NCBI GenBank assembly: GCA_902786345.1
Contig: CADACB010000002.1
Span: 1 to 64,000, forward strand
Length of the DNA stretch: 64,000 bases
Direction: 5' to 3'
Origin: an uncultured Ruminococcus sp.
GTDB lineage: Bacteria > Bacillota > Clostridia > Oscillospirales > Acutalibacteraceae
Part shown: positions 1,392 to 64,000 of the stretch, piece after piece
Layout of the letters: every line of letters starts with the position of its first letter
Numbering within the stretch: the first letter of the stretch is position 1
The notes under the pieces: model-generated
The model's database searches: none
The model's input: the letters and a program-made list of their open reading frames with translations, nothing else
Told to the model about the DNA's origin: nothing
Made by a program: the position numbers and the translations under genes

Positions 1392-4300
1392 TCAGGATAT
1401 TTTTTTCCTTTTGCGTGCCGCTGCAATTGAAACTGCTGCAACACCTGCCAATAAAGCAGAACCTCCTACTATAAGTGCAATGGTTTTTGTGGACTTTTCT
1501 TCCTGAACAGGTATTTTCTCGTAGCTGTAGATAACATATGCCGGAGTTTCACTGTATTCTCCGCTTGTGTTTGCAGTCTTCGCAAAAAGCTGCAGCCCAT
1601 CAAACCTACCCTCCGAAGTCGTATAGGTTTCTCCTGTCTTACCTGACAAAACATCTGTTTTCAATATATTTCCCGAAGGATCAGTATGTATAACGTTAAT
1701 CTTTCCGCTATATTTTACGTCAGTACCGTTTATCCACACTTCATTATGCACCTTACAGCCGCTGCTGCCAAAGGTATTATCCTTGCTGCCATCTTCTCCG
1801 CTAAACAGCGCATAGAGAGAATCTCTTGTACCGATATTTTTTATTGTCAGAGTATACCAGCCTTCTCCAAGTTCACTGTCAGCCTTCATAGCATCTCCAT
1901 GTGCATCGGTATATTCTGTTATATCATCGCCGTCTTTTCTGTATACATATACATCTATTTTTTTCCAGTCATTTGAATTGTAATAATGCAGAACAAGATC
2001 AGCTTCCTCAAGCTCCTTATAATAGTAAGTAACGGTTATATTTTCCTTGCCTGCCTTACCTACAGCATTAGACGGAAATTTTGAAATATCCGTTTCCATT
2101 CCGTCAATATTTTTTATTACCGCTGTATACTCACTGCCCTCTCTTATTTTTTCAGTTATACTCGGAGCAACCGCTTCTTCCTCTTCGTCAGTCATTTTGT
2201 TTGCTTCTTTTAAATAATTAACAGTCAGATCAACAATTTTACCGTTAAACCTCTTATAATAATAAGTAACTGTCTGTATATCCTTTGTGAACTTGCCATC
2301 GACATTTCCTTCAACACGGTCAAAATCATATTCTGTATCAAGTGATTCGTCTTTACTTGTTGCATAAACCGAACCGGCTGTTCCTTTAAAGGTTTTTTGG
2401 GAAAGAACTTCATTTGTATCGCTGTCCTTATGTTCAACCCTTAAAGTACAGCTTTCCGACTTCAAGGAAAGTTTGTCAAAACTTTCCTTGTCTGCAAGGA
2501 TCATAGCAGTTCTCGGCGGTAATACAACAGAGCTACCCTTTACCGTTCCCAATTCATTCAGACCAGCCTCTGTTTTATTCGCAATAATAGTCCACTCAGC
2601 AGGCAAGTTTTTTCCTTCCGGTCCCATCAGCTTAACTTCAGCCTTATCATCGTTAGAGTTGACAAGCACAGCAACATTTTTCCATTCCTTATCATTAGTA
2701 ATGGAATTTTCAATTGTATAAGCAATCACTCCGCTGTCAGTATCAGCGAAATTTACAAGCTCAGCGGATTTCATAGACGAGTCTCTGAACGGCTTATAAT
2801 GTTTTCTTATGTCTATCAGACCGATATAATATGATAAAAGATCAGCATATTTTTCTGTATTGTTCCAATTCAGCTGGTTGATTTCTGTTGACGAAATATA
2901 GCTGTTTTCATCGCCCAGCTTGGTTCTGGCAAACTCCTCGCCGGCCTGCATAAAACTAATACCCTGAGATGTAAATGTGAGTGCAGCGGCAAGCTTGTTC
3001 ATATCAACAAGCTGCTCATCTCTTACATCATAACTCATATCATTCTTTACCGAAAGAACAAGCTTATCATACAATGTATAGTTATCGTGAGCAGAAGTAT
3101 ATGTTACAGTTTGTGAGGGCTGTGCCGACCACTTGTTATCAATAGTGTTTCCTGTAATCGCAGCTCTCAGATTTCCCTTGTTGCTGCCATTCTGTACAAA
3201 ACCCTGATCACGTCCGTTAAATACGTGTCCTTTTACAGCATCTCTAAAATCATCGTTAAAAGCACCGATCCTTTTGTCAAGAAGCCTGATATTGCTCTTT
3301 ACTGCTGTCTGTTCTTTTGTTGCAAGGCTGCCGCCTGTCCACGGCTCACCGTACATTATTATTTTCTGACCTCCGCTTACACGAGTATCAAGCGCCTTAC
3401 GTATTTCATTCATGGTAGTTACATCGTGAACACCCATAAGATCAAACCGAAAGCCGTCAACATGATATTCGTTTGTCCAGTATAAAACAGAATCTATCAT
3501 ATATTTTCTGTACATAAGGTGGTCGCTTGCAGTTTCGTTTCCACAGGCAGAACCGTCGCTGAATGTACCGTCATCCCTCATTCTGTAATAATATCCCGGA
3601 ACGGTCATCTCAAACCAGCCGCCCTCAGCTGTAAACGTATGGTTGTATACCACATCCATAATAACACCTATGCCTGCTTCGTGCAAGGCCATAATCATCT
3701 GCTTGAATTCGTTTATTCTCACATCACCGTGGAACGGGTCTGTTGAATAAGAGCCTTCCGGAACATTATAATTTTTTGGATCATAACCCCAGTTAAACTG
3801 ATCAGATGTATCAGACTCATCAACTGTTGCATAGTCATATACAGGAAGAAGCTGAACGTGTGTTATACCAAGCTTTTTAAGGTAATCTATACATGTTGAA
3901 TATTTTCCCTTATCTCCAAGCGTTGTACCCTTTTCTGTAAATGCAAGATACTTTCCCTTATGCTTAAGAGAAACACCGGAAACCTCACTGCTTGAGAAAT
4001 CCTTTACATGAACCTCCCACACCACAGCATCCGTGGGATCATCATAAAGGATATGCTTATCATTTTCCCAGCCCTCCGGATTTGTAGAGGCAAGGTCAAC
4101 GATCATACTCCGGTTGCCGTTAACCCCCGCTGCCTTTGCATATATATCAGCTGTTTCTCTTGTAACTCCGTTTATAGTAACAAGGTATGTATAATACAGG
4201 TTCTTTTTATCCCCCTCTACCTTTGCACTCCATACTCCGTTGTCACCCTTTTTCATGGACGTAGTAGAAATATCCTGAGCACCTTCTTCCTCAGAACTTC

Positions 4301-4544
4301 CGGTGGCATATATCTTCACCGCTACTCTTGAGGCAGTAGGTGCCCACACCTTAAACGTTGTCGCATTTTTTGTATATGTTGCGCCAAGATCATTTCCGTC
4401 ATATGCCTGTGCATCAAGCTCGTGTGTATACTGAATTTTATTTTCTCCCGGCTTATTTTCATTTACCGCATTAGCCATCATACTTCCTCCCGTTATTATT
4501 GTAATCGCAAGAACGCATCCTATTATCTTTCTTAATTTCAGCAC
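1392..4544 (-). CDS. pulA: Secreted type I pullulanase with C-terminal membrane anchor
   Basis: 1050 residues; hydrolyses alpha-1,6 branches of amylopectin and pullulan outside the cell. Order: signal peptide (1-26), CBM48-like domain (about 50-145), GH13 catalytic barrel (about 165-600), C-terminal beta domain, two MucBP-like repeats ending in VTYYYK (about 700-765 and 775-843), a starch-binding-like module (about 848-945, LVLHYYNSNDWKKIDVYVYR), another MucBP-like repeat (about 947-1010) and a membrane span plus RKRKK tail (1020-1050). Pullulanase hallmark NWGYDP at 251-256; conserved regions DVVYNH at 297, nucleophile Asp368 in GFRFDLMG, acid Glu400 in YGEPW, and Asp487 in SAHDN are all present. 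No LPXTG motif, so anchoring is by the membrane helix rather than sortase. Start is GTG behind GGAGGGG. Single gene between terminators. Confidence 0.93.
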   Translation of the reverse strand: MLKLRKIIGCVLAITIITGGSMMANAVNENKPGENKIQYTHELDAQAYDGNDLGATYTKNATTFKVWAPTASRVAVKIYATGSSEEEGAQDISTTSMKKGDNGVWSAKVEGDKKNLYYTYLVTINGVTRETADIYAKAAGVNGNRSMIVDLASTNPEGWENDKHILYDDPTDAVVWEVHVKDFSSSEVSGVSLKHKGKYLAFTEKGTTLGDKGKYSTCIDYLKKLGITHVQLLPVYDYATVDESDTSDQFNWGYDPKNYNVPEGSYSTDPFHGDVRINEFKQMIMALHEAGIGVIMDVVYNHTFTAEGGWFEMTVPGYYYRMRDDGTFSDGSACGNETASDHLMYRKYMIDSVLYWTNEYHVDGFRFDLMGVHDVTTMNEIRKALDTRVSGGQKIIMYGEPWTGGSLATKEQTAVKSNIRLLDKRIGAFNDDFRDAVKGHVFNGRDQGFVQNGSNKGNLRAAITGNTIDNKWSAQPSQTVTYTSAHDNYTLYDKLVLSVKNDMSYDVRDEQLVDMNKLAAALTFTSQGISFMQAGEEFARTKLGDENSYISSTEINQLNWNNTEKYADLLSYYIGLIDIRKHYKPFRDSSMKSAELVNFADTDSGVIAYTIENSITNDKEWKNVAVLVNSNDDKAEVKLMGPEGKNLPAEWTIIANKTEAGLNELGTVKGSSVVLPPRTAMILADKESFDKLSLKSESCTLRVEHKDSDTNEVLSQKTFKGTAGSVYATSKDESLDTEYDFDRVEGNVDGKFTKDIQTVTYYYKRFNGKIVDLTVNYLKEANKMTDEEEEAVAPSITEKIREGSEYTAVIKNIDGMETDISKFPSNAVGKAGKENITVTYYYKELEEADLVLHYYNSNDWKKIDVYVYRKDGDDITEYTDAHGDAMKADSELGEGWYTLTIKNIGTRDSLYALFSGEDGSKDNTFGSSGCKVHNEVWINGTDVKYSGKINVIHTDPSGNILKTDVLSGKTGETYTTSEGRFDGLQLFAKTANTSGEYSETPAYVIYSYEKIPVQEEKSTKTIALIVGGSALLAGVAAVSIAAARKRKKIS

Positions 4545-11411: not shown

Positions 11412-11745
11412 CAGCCTCAAAGACCCCAGCCAACTGTTGCTGTAAACACTCAGCAGCCTGCACCTCAACGTACACAGCCGCCCAAAAGACAATGGTCGTC
11501 TAACCCAAATGAGTTTAAAACACAACAGCCTGTACAGTCTCAGCAGCCACCTGTACAGCCTCAAAGACCTCAGCCGACTGTTGCTGTACATAATCAGCTG
11601 CCTGTACCTCAGCGTACACAGACACCAAAAAGACAATGGTCGTCTAACCCGAATGATTTTAAAACACAACATCCTGTACAGCCTCAGCAGCCACCTGTAC
11701 AGCCTCAAAGACCTCAGCCGACTGTTGCTGTACATAATCAGATCT
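11412..11745 (+). repeat. 144-bp tandem repeat, two copies plus a truncated third
   Basis: Units begin at 11412, 11556 and 11700 (48 residues each: a Pro/Gln segment, then KRQWSSNPN, then more Pro/Gln). The third unit stops after about 45 bp, just where the second frameshift occurs, so the break coincides with the repeat edge. Confidence 0.88.
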
Positions 11746-12567
11746 CAGAATACTCAGGGAAGACCCCAGGCTCCTCAGAACAGACCTCAGAATCAAGGAA
11801 GACCTCAGCAAAGACGCCCTCAGCACGGCGGTAAAATAGAACTTCAGCCAATTGAGCAAGAGCAGACTGAATACACTGCAACAGGCGAAAGACTGGAAAA
11901 TCTTCCCCCTCAGCAGACACCTACAAATCCTAATTTTGATACAGAATCGTACGTTCACAATCTCAAAAGACAAATAAGAGAGGATCAGTCTCTTTCTCAG
12001 CAAAACAGACAACACGATGATGTTATAAAGAATGCCGAACAGGTAGAAGTAAAGCCTATGAAATTTGACGGAAAGCCAATTAAGGGCGCAACCGTAAATG
12101 TAGTAAAGGCACCTTCCGGTTCACACAAAGCACTGGCTCCGATAATCATTGTCGTGATACTTGTACTTGCGCTGCTCGGAATCGTTTTCTATATATTCTC
12201 AAGCGGTATACTCAACCCGAAAACGGCAAACATCTCATTTACAAAACCGGACAGTTGGGACGATGAGGTTTATGTATATGTGTTTGACGGAAACAATAAG
12301 AATGCAGAACGACCTGGTCAGAAAATGACAAAGGGCGATGGAAAGACATACACATATGTCGTAGATGAAAATCTTACTAACGGTAAGCTTATATTCAGCG
12401 ACGGCAACAAACCAAATTCAAACAGATACCCCTTGACTGATGATGAAGCTTTAACGGTTGAAAAAGATAAGACCTATACCACAAGCAGCAAAAATGCAAC
12501 CAATACAGCATCATCAAAGAGCAGTGCGTCAAGCAGCAGTCAGGCAAGTAAATAAAACCAAAGCAGC

Positions 12568-59495: not shown

Positions 59496-59534
59496 AAAAA
59501 AGACACGGTAAAACAAAAATACCGTGTCTTTTTA
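59496..59534. terminator. Bidirectional terminator
   Basis: AGACACGGTA (59501-59510) pairs with TACCGTGTCT (59520-59529); A6 lies before and T5 after, so it ends both the DUF3592 gene and the minus-strand peptidase gene. No gene in 59535-59665. Confidence 0.88.
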
Positions 59535-59665: not shown

Positions 59666-62359
59666 TCAAACATCTCCCCTCACCTGTTCTACCCAGACTG
59701 TTTTTGACTCCATAAATATCTCACCATTGCTTGACTTGGCTTTCACTAAAATTTCATACGGTCCATATTCATCCGGCAAATTGAATTCGCAGCTTTCGCT
59801 TGCGGTATAATCCTGAATTATTGTTTCCTGTCCGTATTTTATATAAGAATAGCTGTACTCATACGTTAATCCCGGGTCATCAAGATTTTCTGCTTTAGCA
59901 GATGCTTTTATACGCTCTCCCTTTCGAGCACTGTTTTCTGGTGTAACTTTAAACTCTTTCAAATTCATACCGGTATCTTCAGTAATATTAAACATCAAAG
60001 TCTTATAGCTATATTCTCCATTAGCATCGATTCTTGAAATAATGGCACAATATCCGCCACTTGCCGGAGGCACCCACTCAATATAATACTGACACGTTTT
60101 TAATTTTTGGTTCCGCCATACTATTGTTTTATCAATTATGAAACTAACTTTTTTTGAAAATACCACCTTATTGAAATACATTATATCCAATTTGTAACCG
60201 CAATTATTAGGTTCCATATTATTATTTTTCGTTTTTGCAATAAGCTTTATAGGCCTAAGCAATGATATGTCATCTTTTCCGTCTTGAATATAAAAATCCG
60301 TAAATGTTAACGGCTCATCCTTTATTTCAACATCAATACTTTTTTTTCGTATGCCACCCGATGAGTCCATCGCAAACACAGAAATTTCGTAATTTCCTTC
60401 TTTTTCATAAACATATTGATCAAGCAAATTGGTATTTGCATCCGGCTCTTTATATTCTGATTCCGCTTCTATACGATTTGTATTTTTTTCTTTGATTACA
60501 TACTTATATTTTAACGGTTCATAACCGCTTATGTATTTTACTGTATAACTATCCTCAACTCCAACATCGGATGTTCCGGTTAATAAATTACTCAACTCAA
60601 AATCAATGGGCTCCCCAACATTTTCAGTTATAAAGTAATTTTTTCCTTTGACTGCTCTATATCCATTTCCATTGTTATCATCCCATACGCCACTTCCGTT
60701 ACCAAAACGTATAGTTGCCTGTGAAGCTGTACCTAAGGGAATAACAATTCTGTTGACATAACCATACATATCTGTGTCATATTCCATAGGTTTGTTAATC
60801 TCTGTATATGAATTATTGATTTTATAGCTAATAACAGGATTTTTATATCCTCTGTAATATACGATAGCATTATTGCCTTCAACGCCATTATGGAAATTTA
60901 TAGTTTTGGAATCTCCGCATGCTGTTACAGGAAACTCACTGTCATTTCTTAATGTTGTTCCGCTTTGGTCATCATAAATAACGCAATCCTTAAGGGTTAT
61001 GGAATTTTTATTTCCGCCTTGAGAGGAATATACTTCAATCTCCCAGTCAACCTCATTTATATCTGTGCAACCTATGGGATCCATAATATACCCAAGATCA
61101 AAAGCAAAGGTTCCTTCAGTTTCATTATTGCTTCCATCATAGCCAACTGTATCAAAGCCCCAGTTAGTCCATGGTATTATTTTTTTCTGCTCAAATGTCT
61201 TGTCTTCCCAGGTTCCCTTTATTTTCACGTTTGTATGGTATCTGTCCTTAGTACTTGTAGTAACCTTTACAAACTTATGCGGTACATAGGATTCAGGCAT
61301 AACCTCAAGCCTGCTTACATCTGTAAACATTTGAATTCTTTTCTCTGCACTTATCACTTTATCTACCACGGATTTTTTATTTAAGGCGTCATATGCAGCC
61401 CAAACAAAACCTTTGTTACAATAATCCGGTCCGTGTGAATTTGCGATTTTAAAAGCGCCCATCTCACCTCTATCAATAACATTGTTATTATTTATGTCCG
61501 ACCATATGCTATCATCATAGCCGACGATCGTCATTTCGTGGTCTCCCTCCTGACCATCGCAGCTTATAACAACTTCTTCTCCTACAACACCGTTATTATA
61601 TCCTGAATTGTTACTTTTTAACTTAGAATAATTAAAAGAATTAAAGTATGTTTTAAACGGCAATACATCTCCATTTGAAAGTGCGGTTTTAATTGCCAAA
61701 ATATCATCGTCATCAGTAGATGTGATAATTTTTCCATCAATTCCTACATTTTCTAATACTTCAAATTTTTTAACTTTATGTTTAGCTGCACTTTTATAAG
61801 CTTCTTCGTTTGTAGGCCATATAGAATAATCTCCGTTATATGGAAATTCTTCATTTGTAACACAGCCTATTTTTTTCAAAAAATCAGCAAGATAAATAAA
61901 TGGGGTTCCACCCTGTGACATATTATTATTTGAAAAGTTAAATAAAAATCTTGGTGAAAAAGAATTCTCATAGGTTGCTGTACGATCTCTGGATTTATTA
62001 TACGTATAGCTAAGTGTATAGTAAGCTGTTGCCCAGCTTGCACAAGAACCTATCCCACCCTGACTTGCAATCGGCGGAAAATATTTGTTTGCACTGTTGT
62101 CTACTTTTGAGGGGAGGGATGATGCTCCATACATAGCAAACTCTTTTTCATTAACATTTGTTATATATTCATCATTAATATATGTTTCTTTTTTAGTTTC
62201 TTCCTGATAATTTTTATCCTTGATATTTCCGGTCAAAGATGAATCAGTTTCCTGATAATCGTTCGCATTTCCCGATATTGATCCAACCGATAATGAAATG
62301 ACTGATGCTAACAATAATGATATTATTTTTCTTGGTTTTTTGTAAAATTTTTTATTCAT
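59666..62359 (-). CDS. Secreted papain-family (C1) peptidase with CBM25-like module and Ig-like repeats
   Basis: 897 residues. Signal peptide (1-32), propeptide-like linker, then a C1 peptidase (about 82-345): Gln100, catalytic Cys106 in GSCASWATAYY, His274 in GDHEMTIVGYD, Asn307 in IANSHGPDY. Between His and Asn is a perfect EF-hand loop DINNNNVIDRGE (288-299), probably a calcium site. Residues about 496-578 (IVYYRGYKNPVISYKINNSY ... GNGSGVWDDNNGNGY) follow the CBM25 starch-binding pattern. The rest is two or three Ig-like domains (from about 600) related to those of the next gene. AGGAGG before the ATG. Role inferred: a surface or secreted protease that docks on starch granules or starch-bound proteins. 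Confidence 0.85.
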   Translation of the reverse strand: MNKKFYKKPRKIISLLLASVISLSVGSISGNANDYQETDSSLTGNIKDKNYQEETKKETYINDEYITNVNEKEFAMYGASSLPSKVDNSANKYFPPIASQGGIGSCASWATAYYTLSYTYNKSRDRTATYENSFSPRFLFNFSNNNMSQGGTPFIYLADFLKKIGCVTNEEFPYNGDYSIWPTNEEAYKSAAKHKVKKFEVLENVGIDGKIITSTDDDDILAIKTALSNGDVLPFKTYFNSFNYSKLKSNNSGYNNGVVGEEVVISCDGQEGDHEMTIVGYDDSIWSDINNNNVIDRGEMGAFKIANSHGPDYCNKGFVWAAYDALNKKSVVDKVISAEKRIQMFTDVSRLEVMPESYVPHKFVKVTTSTKDRYHTNVKIKGTWEDKTFEQKKIIPWTNWGFDTVGYDGSNNETEGTFAFDLGYIMDPIGCTDINEVDWEIEVYSSQGGNKNSITLKDCVIYDDQSGTTLRNDSEFPVTACGDSKTINFHNGVEGNNAIVYYRGYKNPVISYKINNSYTEINKPMEYDTDMYGYVNRIVIPLGTASQATIRFGNGSGVWDDNNGNGYRAVKGKNYFITENVGEPIDFELSNLLTGTSDVGVEDSYTVKYISGYEPLKYKYVIKEKNTNRIEAESEYKEPDANTNLLDQYVYEKEGNYEISVFAMDSSGGIRKKSIDVEIKDEPLTFTDFYIQDGKDDISLLRPIKLIAKTKNNNMEPNNCGYKLDIMYFNKVVFSKKVSFIIDKTIVWRNQKLKTCQYYIEWVPPASGGYCAIISRIDANGEYSYKTLMFNITEDTGMNLKEFKVTPENSARKGERIKASAKAENLDDPGLTYEYSYSYIKYGQETIIQDYTASESCEFNLPDEYGPYEILVKAKSSNGEIFMESKTVWVEQVRGDV

Positions 62360-62538: not shown

Positions 62539-64000
62539 TCATTCCTTTTTATAAAGACACTTGTCTCCGCTGTATTCAAAAATGTATACCGCGTTGCTCG
62601 ATGAAAGAGCTCCGTTTGCTCCGAACCATCTGTCTCCAATGTGGAATTTAAATCCTGTTGCCTGCTTTGGAACTGTAGCTTCATATATATAGAATTTCTG
62701 TGCAGCACCTCCCCAGTATGCAGATCCTACACTTATGTTTTCAGTTTTTCCTGTATTAACACATTTAGCGTCTCCTACAAAGTTATTATTATTCCAATAA
62801 TGAATTTTGTAATCTGCAGAATTAGTTCTGTCGTTAATATAGTATATAATTCCAACTTTAATCTTATAGCTTTCAGGCTCAGGATTCGGATTATATTCTA
62901 CATTTATTTTCTTACTTGCAAATGCAGTCGTACCGTCCTCTGTTGTTATTTTAAGTTTGATTGTATACACGCCTGTATCTGAAGGTCTCCAAGAGGCTGT
63001 TTTGTTACTATTTGCTGTAAGTACAGTTTCTACACCGTCTTTAACTACAGTATAAACATAGTTTTCTGCTGTCAGCGAAGATGCGGCATATTGCACATCT
63101 GCACTGAGAGTTGTTGTCTGTTGAGCCAGTACTGTTGTCTTATCTGTCCTTATATCATTTATATGGGGCTGTTCAAGCCATACGGATTTTACATATAAAG
63201 CCTCTATTCCTGCTGAATCCCTGGCTACGACCTTAATATCACAAGGACCTGTTTCAAACGGCAACTGAATATCATAGCTTGACGAATCAGTAAATTCCTG
63301 GACAATGGTTTCCTTGCCATATCTAATATATGAATATTGATATTTATACTTTCCATCGCCGCCAGATGCTGTTGCTTTCACTTTTAATTTTTCACCCATA
63401 CCAATATTTTCATCAGGTGTAATTGTTACTGAATTAAGTCTTACATCAGATCCAGCTACCGTGAACTTCATCCACTTAAATGCACACTCTTTATCTTTGG
63501 ATACCCTTGAAATGTATGCATAATACTCTCCACCGCATCTCGGCGTCCATCTTACTGTAATCAAAGACCGTTTTAGTGATTCACCAATTATGCAGCCCTT
63601 ACTCATATCAGTTGTTTGTGAATAAATCAATTTCTGGTCCTTATAAATACCGAAGCTATATTTACGATTACCATAGTTTACACCATCGTTCACCGTTTCT
63701 CCTGAAAAAACTATTTCTTTATTTACAGGAAGAATAGCATCATCAGAATCTAAATGAAAATCAGTGAAAGTCAAAGGATCATCCACCACATTCAATTCAA
63801 TGACTTTAGAAGCATATTCTCCCGAAGAATCCCTTGCTACAACAGTTACCTCAAATGTACCTTCTTTTTTAAATTCATATAATCCTGTAAATTGATATTG
63901 GTTAGAATATGAATCAATAAAAGAATTTTCTTCTTTAGATTTTTCATATACAGAATCATACTCGGTTTCACCGGTCTTCTTATTTTTTACAATTATCTTG
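62539..64000 (-). CDS. Large secreted protein, C-terminal part: Ig-like repeats and putative carbohydrate-binding end (cut by window end)
   Basis: Frame stays open to the window edge, so about 487 C-terminal residues are visible. Four to five Ig-like domains; the stretch DDPLTFTDFHL...TVRWTPRCGGEYYAYISR is a clear counterpart of DEPLTFTDFYI...YIEWVPPASGGYCAIISR in the peptidase at 59666-62359, so the two genes are tandem paralogues. The last 100 residues (IHYWNNNNFVGD, AYWGGAAQKFYIYEATVP, GDRWFGANGAL) look like a starch-binding module of the CBM25/26 style. By analogy the missing N-terminus may hold another peptidase domain; unproven. Terminator right after the stop. Confidence 0.8.
   Translation of the reverse strand, partial: KIIVKNKKTGETEYDSVYEKSKEENSFIDSYSNQYQFTGLYEFKKEGTFEVTVVARDSSGEYASKVIELNVVDDPLTFTDFHLDSDDAILPVNKEIVFSGETVNDGVNYGNRKYSFGIYKDQKLIYSQTTDMSKGCIIGESLKRSLITVRWTPRCGGEYYAYISRVSKDKECAFKWMKFTVAGSDVRLNSVTITPDENIGMGEKLKVKATASGGDGKYKYQYSYIRYGKETIVQEFTDSSSYDIQLPFETGPCDIKVVARDSAGIEALYVKSVWLEQPHINDIRTDKTTVLAQQTTTLSADVQYAASSLTAENYVYTVVKDGVETVLTANSNKTASWRPSDTGVYTIKLKITTEDGTTAFASKKINVEYNPNPEPESYKIKVGIIYYINDRTNSADYKIHYWNNNNFVGDAKCVNTGKTENISVGSAYWGGAAQKFYIYEATVPKQATGFKFHIGDRWFGANGALSSSNAVYIFEYSGDKCLYKKE

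Follow-up and report, generated by a model that had tools for sequence, protein, structure and literature searches.

Closest described systems

The protein considered here is built from known parts, a papain-type peptidase domain of family C1 and a carbohydrate-binding module of family 25 (CBM25); as far as checked, their combination, its spread and a branch of the family that bears dockerins are undescribed. It is encoded near one end of a 64,000-nucleotide stretch (positions 1 to 64,000 of contig CADACB010000002.1, assembly GCA_902786345.1, from an uncultured Ruminococcus sp.), referred to below as the window. With modest confidence, we regard this window protease as a secreted, active papain-type cysteine endopeptidase from a starch-targeted protease family of gut Clostridia.

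Among solved peptidases of family C1, the nearest relatives retrieved from the PDB with a papain profile are 3ois (listed as Cysteine protease, E 2e-12) and Lpg2622 (6a0n, E 1e-10), followed in third and fourth place by 4ci7 (E 1e-7) and 4d59 (E 3e-7). These share the catalytic Gln/Cys/His/Asn set and the overall domain with the window protease, which in contrast adds an EF-type loop, a downstream beta domain and the CBM25 module, and in which no inhibitor propeptide of the I29 type is matched by Pfam at E≤1. The described CBM25 modules BhCBM25 (2c3v/2c3w) and those of Paenibacillus polymyxa (2laa/2lab) belong to bacterial amylases and have the same family signature and fold as the window module, which sits on a protease instead.

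To our knowledge, work on resistant starch treats degradation almost wholly as a task of glycoside hydrolases and adhesins. In grain, the starch granule is embedded in protein. Protein around the granules is described as a barrier to starch digestion in the rumen that added protease relieves, and in feed science a higher ruminal digestibility of starch is reported when protease is supplied (PMC10162983).

Peptidases have been associated with polysaccharide-degrading complexes before. Doc14 of R. bromii L2-63, a dockerin protein annotated as a peptidase, is described as released by EDTA together with amylosome proteins (PMC9112005); its reported layout (SP PEP A-S Doc, 550 aa) puts it in the size class of one relative of the window protease (L047, 538 aa), a likeness drawn from the description. 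In R. flavefaciens, RflaF_05439 is likewise a putative cysteine peptidase with a dockerin in a polysaccharide complex, but its authors place it in the NlpC/P60 superfamily, it has two tandem modules and an X-dockerin, and the abstract of the report does not mention CBM25 (PMC3573020). A relation of the window protease to this NlpC/P60 module was considered and rejected, the superfamilies being different (PMC3573020).

A papain-type protease with a CBM25 module

Pfam places Peptidase_C1 (PF00112) at residues 82-328 (E 8e-8, 33.1 bits against a curated cut-off of 20.7). The catalytic set Gln100/Cys106/His274/Asn307, with Gln100 as the oxyanion-hole residue, occurs in order and is invariant in 45/45 aligned rows, as it is across 44 papain domains whose hosts include archaea, Chlamydiota and Planctomycetota, among other groups. 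A first-pass annotation, made from the letters of the window alone, had named Cys106, His274 and Asn307 and had suggested a Pfam search for C1; all three residues are where it placed them, joined by Gln100, and the search gave the expected family. Most of the solved chains matched by the papain profile carry the name of a cysteine protease, a cathepsin or a plant relative. A plasmid search led no further than two matches, both partial C1 peptidases. Judged from its residues, the window protein is very probably an active protease.

Further downstream, CBM_25 (PF03423) is found at residues 495-582 when the whole protein is searched (E 1.5e-8, 35.4 bits against a cut-off of 27.3), and the module searched alone reaches 39.8 bits against the same cut-off. 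It includes the stretches YYRGY (501-505) and VWDDNNGNGY (558-567) that had been called CBM25-style in the first reading, which had proposed searches for both CBM25 and CBM26. CBM26 was rejected as the identity of the module, for which Pfam lists CBM_25 alone. The AlphaFold2 (AF2) model of the isolated module has a predicted local distance difference test (pLDDT) score of 88 and forms a CBM25 beta-sandwich; the top eight Foldseek chains are all CBM25s (2laa, 2c3w, 2c3x, 2c3v and 2lab; E 1e-5 to 9e-5, TMt 0.68-0.73), with a CBM26 chain at the next rank. In a search of the PDB, the module profile retrieves the CBM25s 2laa, 2lab and 2c3v at E 2e-22 or better, and 61 of 65 modules in the family have a separate Pfam CBM_25 match at E≤0.01. 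The assignment of a CBM25 fold to the modelled window module is firm.

Spread of the family

The window protease is one member of a widespread, expanded family, as seen in searches of named genomes and of the genus. The scan of named genomes covered the best 80 of 112 relatives (79 loci); the ranking followed resemblance to the window protein, which favours bearers of CBM25 in this set. It comprises 99 distinct papain open reading frames (ORFs), 95 of them with a full papain domain; CBM25 is present in 58 of these 95, in one to four copies each, and in 48 of the 80 complete papain ORFs. In a papain tree of 100 rows, 63 carry CBM25, 33 do not and 4 are unassigned; with the unassigned rows excluded, the CBM25 label changes at least seven times (the group count is 8, with 5 forced by starred branches), and the module has therefore been gained or lost repeatedly. 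One relative (L053:2218-5163) carries Kelch repeats and CBM5/12, i.e. the protease core with another polysaccharide module. NCBIfam gave no match above a cut-off for any of four family proteins (4/4), and the open literature searched yielded no description of a protein joining papain and CBM25, which agrees with the initial remark that no described family with this order of domains was known.

The genus survey covered 64 genomes, searched with a papain-profile hidden Markov model and with Pfam CBM_25. The papain profile has a match at E≤0.001 in 32 genomes, weak ones included, and a strong match (E<1e-60) in 23. CBM_25 occurs in 13 of the 64, namely in 13/23 genomes with a strong papain core and in 0/41 of the others (Fisher p 9e-8, a value that presumes independent genomes, whereas these are related). 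The CBM_25 matches fall into 31 frames, with contigs and frame lengths matched by eye: 21 contain a papain core, one is a stop-interrupted papain gene and nine are free of papain. Five of the nine (on G011, G017, G060 and G030), which combine CBM25 with Ig-type repeats, lie at or near contig ends and could be the tails of split papain genes; some of them show weaker CBM26 or CBM53 matches on the CBM25 stretches. Another (G024:C43) is an alpha-amylase with CBM26, on which a sub-cut-off CBM_25 match (20.3 bits) is superimposed and for which Pfam lists no CBM_25 at E≤0.001. The remaining three are G002 proteins with Ig/PKD/Y_Y_Y repeats, one of them with a dockerin (L203 and L204 are among these); no glycoside hydrolase was found in the G002 proteins, the start of one frame lying outside the region read.

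The genome of the window itself encodes five papain-CBM25 proteases, which account for its only five CBM25 matches and all keep the module. Three are arranged in tandem (the window gene and its two upstream neighbours, paralogue 3 following paralogue 2 outside the window), and the others are on contigs C9 and C31. The four paralogues are 29-41 % identical to the window protease. Paralogues 2, 3 and 4 extend beyond its end by a further stretch and a C-terminal domain of ~110 aa, which is rich in aromatic residues (HYW ... FKFHIGDRWF) and CBM26-like by eye only; Pfam gave no believable family for it, and a profile search no PDB relative. This domain has 22 matches in 14/64 genus genomes, 19 of them in frames with a papain match, one in a stop-interrupted gene and two in short papain-free frames (by eye).

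A loop common to the papain group

The loop DINNNNVIDRGE fits the 12-residue pattern DxNxNxxxDxxE of an EF-type calcium loop, with Asn at loop position 6, where EF-hand loops usually have Gly. In the AF2 model, strands assigned by DSSP (273-286 and 300-306) flank the loop on both sides and helices are absent, which makes it a segment inserted into the hairpin of the His and Asn strands, not an EF-hand. Of the “perfect EF-hand loop” announced in the annotation, the 12-residue motif and its position between the catalytic His and Asn remain, while the helix-loop-helix does not. The loop may bind calcium.

The segment that holds the loop is a gap in the alignment with 3ois. The loop is not, however, a special trait of the window protease, a notion that was rejected. 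A survey based on the genus profile search (31 rows from 30 loci among the 54 papain-profile matches) found a loose form of the motif in 22/22 rows of at least 200 bits that cover the loop, although the profile had itself been built from loop-bearing sequences; two further rows do not reach the loop and seven weak partial ones (26-37 bits) are without the motif. The named-genome set has the loose motif in 95/95 full papain domains but was drawn with patterns from the loop region, and the genus profile search is relied on instead. Archaeal relatives from Methanosuratincola and kin (L073, L077 and L078) keep the motif as well; Pfam assigns a PKD domain to L073 and L077 and lists no CBM for either.

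Relatives with possible links to starch complexes

Six relatives bear a dockerin, and five of them CBM26: papain, dockerin and CBM26 are combined in L031, L043, L055 and L071 (Pfam and our papain profile), L020 consists of C1, two CBM25s, a dockerin and CBM26, and L047 of papain and dockerin. Pfam detects C1 in L031 below its cut-off (E 0.051) and lists none at E≤0.001 in L043, L047, L055 and L071; the profile built from the five paralogues matches the latter four at 292-298 bits and, with L031 included, at 292-320 bits. The five genomes that hold these six loci all contain cohesins over the cut-off (5/5) and 24-44 CBM26 matches, as an amylosome would need. In carrying dockerins and CBM26 in cohesin-bearing genomes, these relatives resemble the R. 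bromii amylosome.

Two other proteins were encountered in these searches. L012:3987-7994 is a peptidase of the M60 (enhancin-like) type that carries two dockerins; its genome gave no cohesin match, which may point to divergent cohesins or to orphan dockerins. L011:3570-11273 encodes a protein of 2567 aa, in which three X25 starch-type domains precede a long Y_Y_Y/Ig repeat array.

Proposed starch-directed proteolysis and its alternatives

The features of the window protease and its relatives could act together in the following manner: The signal peptide would export the protease, and the papain core with its calcium-type loop would cut proteins. An attached module, which is CBM25 in the window protease and may be an array of CBM25s, CBM26 or a dockerin in its relatives, would hold the enzyme at starch or at the amylosome, where it would most likely cut proteins that coat or embed the granules (the endosperm protein matrix). 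Removal of this protein would uncover starch for the CBM26-bearing starch enzymes of the cell, and the cutting would also yield peptides. That granule or matrix proteins are the main substrate is a tentative proposal. Targeting to starch is probable for the family as a whole. Starch-directed proteolysis, raised in the first-pass annotation, draws most of its added support from relatives, among them bearers of CBM25 arrays in which the ligand residues are preserved and homologues with a dockerin or CBM26. The canonical His/Trp/Trp ligand triad is found in 78 of the 110 CBM25 modules of papain ORFs (the five of the window genome included), and in 71/76 modules where several are seen in one protein. 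The window genome itself has ten CBM26 matches, nine of them over the cut-off, and one of the ten lies in a pullulanase encoded within the window.

A number of observations weigh against extending this reading to the window protease. BhCBM25 contacts its ligand through H26, W34, W74, N76 and D81 (2C3V numbering; PMC4625611). In the alignment, the window module keeps W74 (W559), has Asp for N76 and, unlike the amylase modules, replaces H26 (Ser511), W34 (Tyr518) and D81 (Gly), so that the triad reads Ser/Tyr/Trp. The beta-sandwich anticipated for the region of residues 490-580 is present in the model, while the aromatic binding platform expected along with it is eroded. The other four modules of the genome read K/Q/W, R/N/W, S/N/V and R/T/Y (in a second alignment the middle triad position is F in paralogue 4 and Y in paralogue 5), i.e. 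0/5 canonical, and among proteins with one visible module just 7/34 have the canonical triad, a count that may miss additional modules of ORFs truncated at contig ends. Three of the four sisters have the C-terminal domain that the window protease does not. Pfam finds no dockerin in the window protease, and a search for cohesin (PF00963), which did give matches in two control genomes, gave 0 matches at E≤0.01 in its genome, where a divergent cohesin could be missed; in both respects it departs from the R. bromii amylosome. The genome has three dockerin matches, in two proteins. Finally, 33 papain-family ORFs without CBM25 were found, ten of them from phyla other than Bacillota (the 11 non-Bacillota rows of the tree comprise these ten and one unassigned), so that the papain core alone is not starch-specific.

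By fold and profile the window module is a CBM25, but binding is not implied because the ligand residues are replaced. Its aligned residues leave starch binding by the module itself possible, with our judgement leaning slightly against it, and make targeting of the window protease by its own CBM25 doubtful. Since no cohesin match was found in this genome, the protease is more likely to act there as a free enzyme that carries a module of its own.

These replaced residues are what the main rival builds on. It assumes a non-targeted, general secreted protease that scavenges peptides and whose CBM25, in this clade, has lost starch binding and decayed to a structural spacer. The non-canonical triads (5/5 modules of the window genome, 27/34 proteins with a single visible module) are what it would predict, as is a sister subclade of ten rows in which CBM25 was not found in nine, the tenth being unassigned. 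Such a spacer is nevertheless unlikely, as the module keeps fold and signature, has one Trp and one Tyr at the stacking positions and has been kept in all five paralogues.

Less probable still is a processing protease that trims or matures starch-bound or surface proteins of its own cell. The third and fourth solved relatives, 4ci7 and 4d59, bear the PDB name putative cell-surface-associated cysteine protease and are presumably Cwp84, which processes the S-layer precursor of C. difficile; five paralogues as divergent as those found here, however, fit varied outside substrates better than a single maturation step. The module might also aim the protease at other carriers of alpha-glucan, such as the glycogen of competitors or the amylopectin granules of rumen ciliates, in predation or competition. 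Ciliates store amylopectin, and 28 of 43 papain-CBM25 loci have titles with ruminant or RUG (by eye; RUG is taken to denote rumen genomes), but the occurrence of the same modules beside a dockerin and CBM26 in L020 speaks against this idea, which we consider very improbable. Equally remote is a papain fold that is inactive or performs another reaction (ligation, amide hydrolysis), for which the missing I29 propeptide could be cited, since the Gln/Cys/His/Asn set is complete and invariant and the solved matches are mostly named proteases.

If starch-directed proteolysis is indeed a property of the family, gut Clostridia might possess a proteolytic branch dedicated to the degradation of starch, in which papain proteases aimed by CBM25 arrays and CBM26, and brought into amylosomes by dockerins, remove the proteins of granules and endosperm matrix before the amylases act, CBM25 being in this genus mainly a protease tag; we put this forward as a possibility short of an expectation. 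A family of proteases with starch modules or dockerins would name bacterial enzymes for the step of protein removal, with uses in feed and for resistant starch, and would open this step to simple assays of binding and digestion. The function of CBM25 could be read from a natural experiment, as modules are canonical in proteins with several CBMs and eroded in those with one.

Gene layout and neighbouring features

The features of the gene and its surroundings are compiled in Table 1. The AF2 model of the window protease, computed from a 45-sequence alignment, has a mean pLDDT of 86.8 and, counting stretches of at least three residues, falls below 50 in just three places, model residues 1-45, 710-715 and 862-864 (33 is added to model numbers to obtain residue numbers). 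The signal peptide was called from the sequence by eye, without a predictor.

Table 1. Features of the window protease gene and adjoining elements
Feature	Coordinates	Strand	Basis
Whole gene, C1-family peptidase with CBM25, 897 aa, ATG start	59666..62359	-	ORF and Pfam
Predicted signal peptide, residues 1 to ~33	62261..62359	-	basic start and hydrophobic stretch, by eye
Linker, residues 34-78	62126..62260	-	low model confidence
Papain domain, residues 79-335, Gln100/Cys106/His274/Asn307	61355..62125	-	Pfam, alignments
EF-type loop DINNNNVIDRGE, residues 288-299, hairpin between His and Asn strands	61463..61498	-	sequence and model
Beta domain, residues 336-487	60899..61354	-	alignment with relatives
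CBM25 module, residues 495-582, ligand positions S511/Y518/W559	60614..60877	-	Pfam, Foldseek, alignment
Beta-sandwich tail (Ig/MG-like), residues 600-897	59669..60562	-	AF2 model, Foldseek
Intrinsic-terminator-like hairpin and T run, 3' of the protease gene	59496..59530	-	by eye
Paralogue 2 (1132 aa), C-terminal part; next gene upstream, extends past the window end	62539..64000	-	
Unnamed ~110-aa domain at the C terminus of paralogue 2, not present in the window protease	62542..62865	-	

The beta domain aligns with relatives, those from distant phyla included, at 15-24 % identity; it has no Pfam match in the window protease and no significant PDB relative in a profile search (best E 0.35). 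The tail is all beta in the model except for one short helix and has no Pfam match at E≤1, and paralogues 2-4 show PKD/Y_Y_Y or other Pfam matches, all below the cut-offs. A Foldseek search with the whole model is swamped by arrays of Ig/MG domains, e.g. those of complement C3/C5. The Ig-like domains seen in the initial reading are thus supported by the modelled tail and its structural matches though not by Pfam, and are plausible, not proven. The terminator-like hairpin was missed by the automated hairpin scan, whose limit its loop exceeds.

Elsewhere in the window, positions 1392-4544 (- strand) encode a CBM48-GH13-MucBP-CBM26 pullulanase, for which Pfam lists no dockerin; R. bromii Amy12 is given with a dockerin (PMC5814915, Table 1). 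An ORF of 348 aa at 11509-12552 (+ strand) has CBM26 as its sole Pfam domain at E≤0.001 and is possibly a starch adhesin without a hydrolase.

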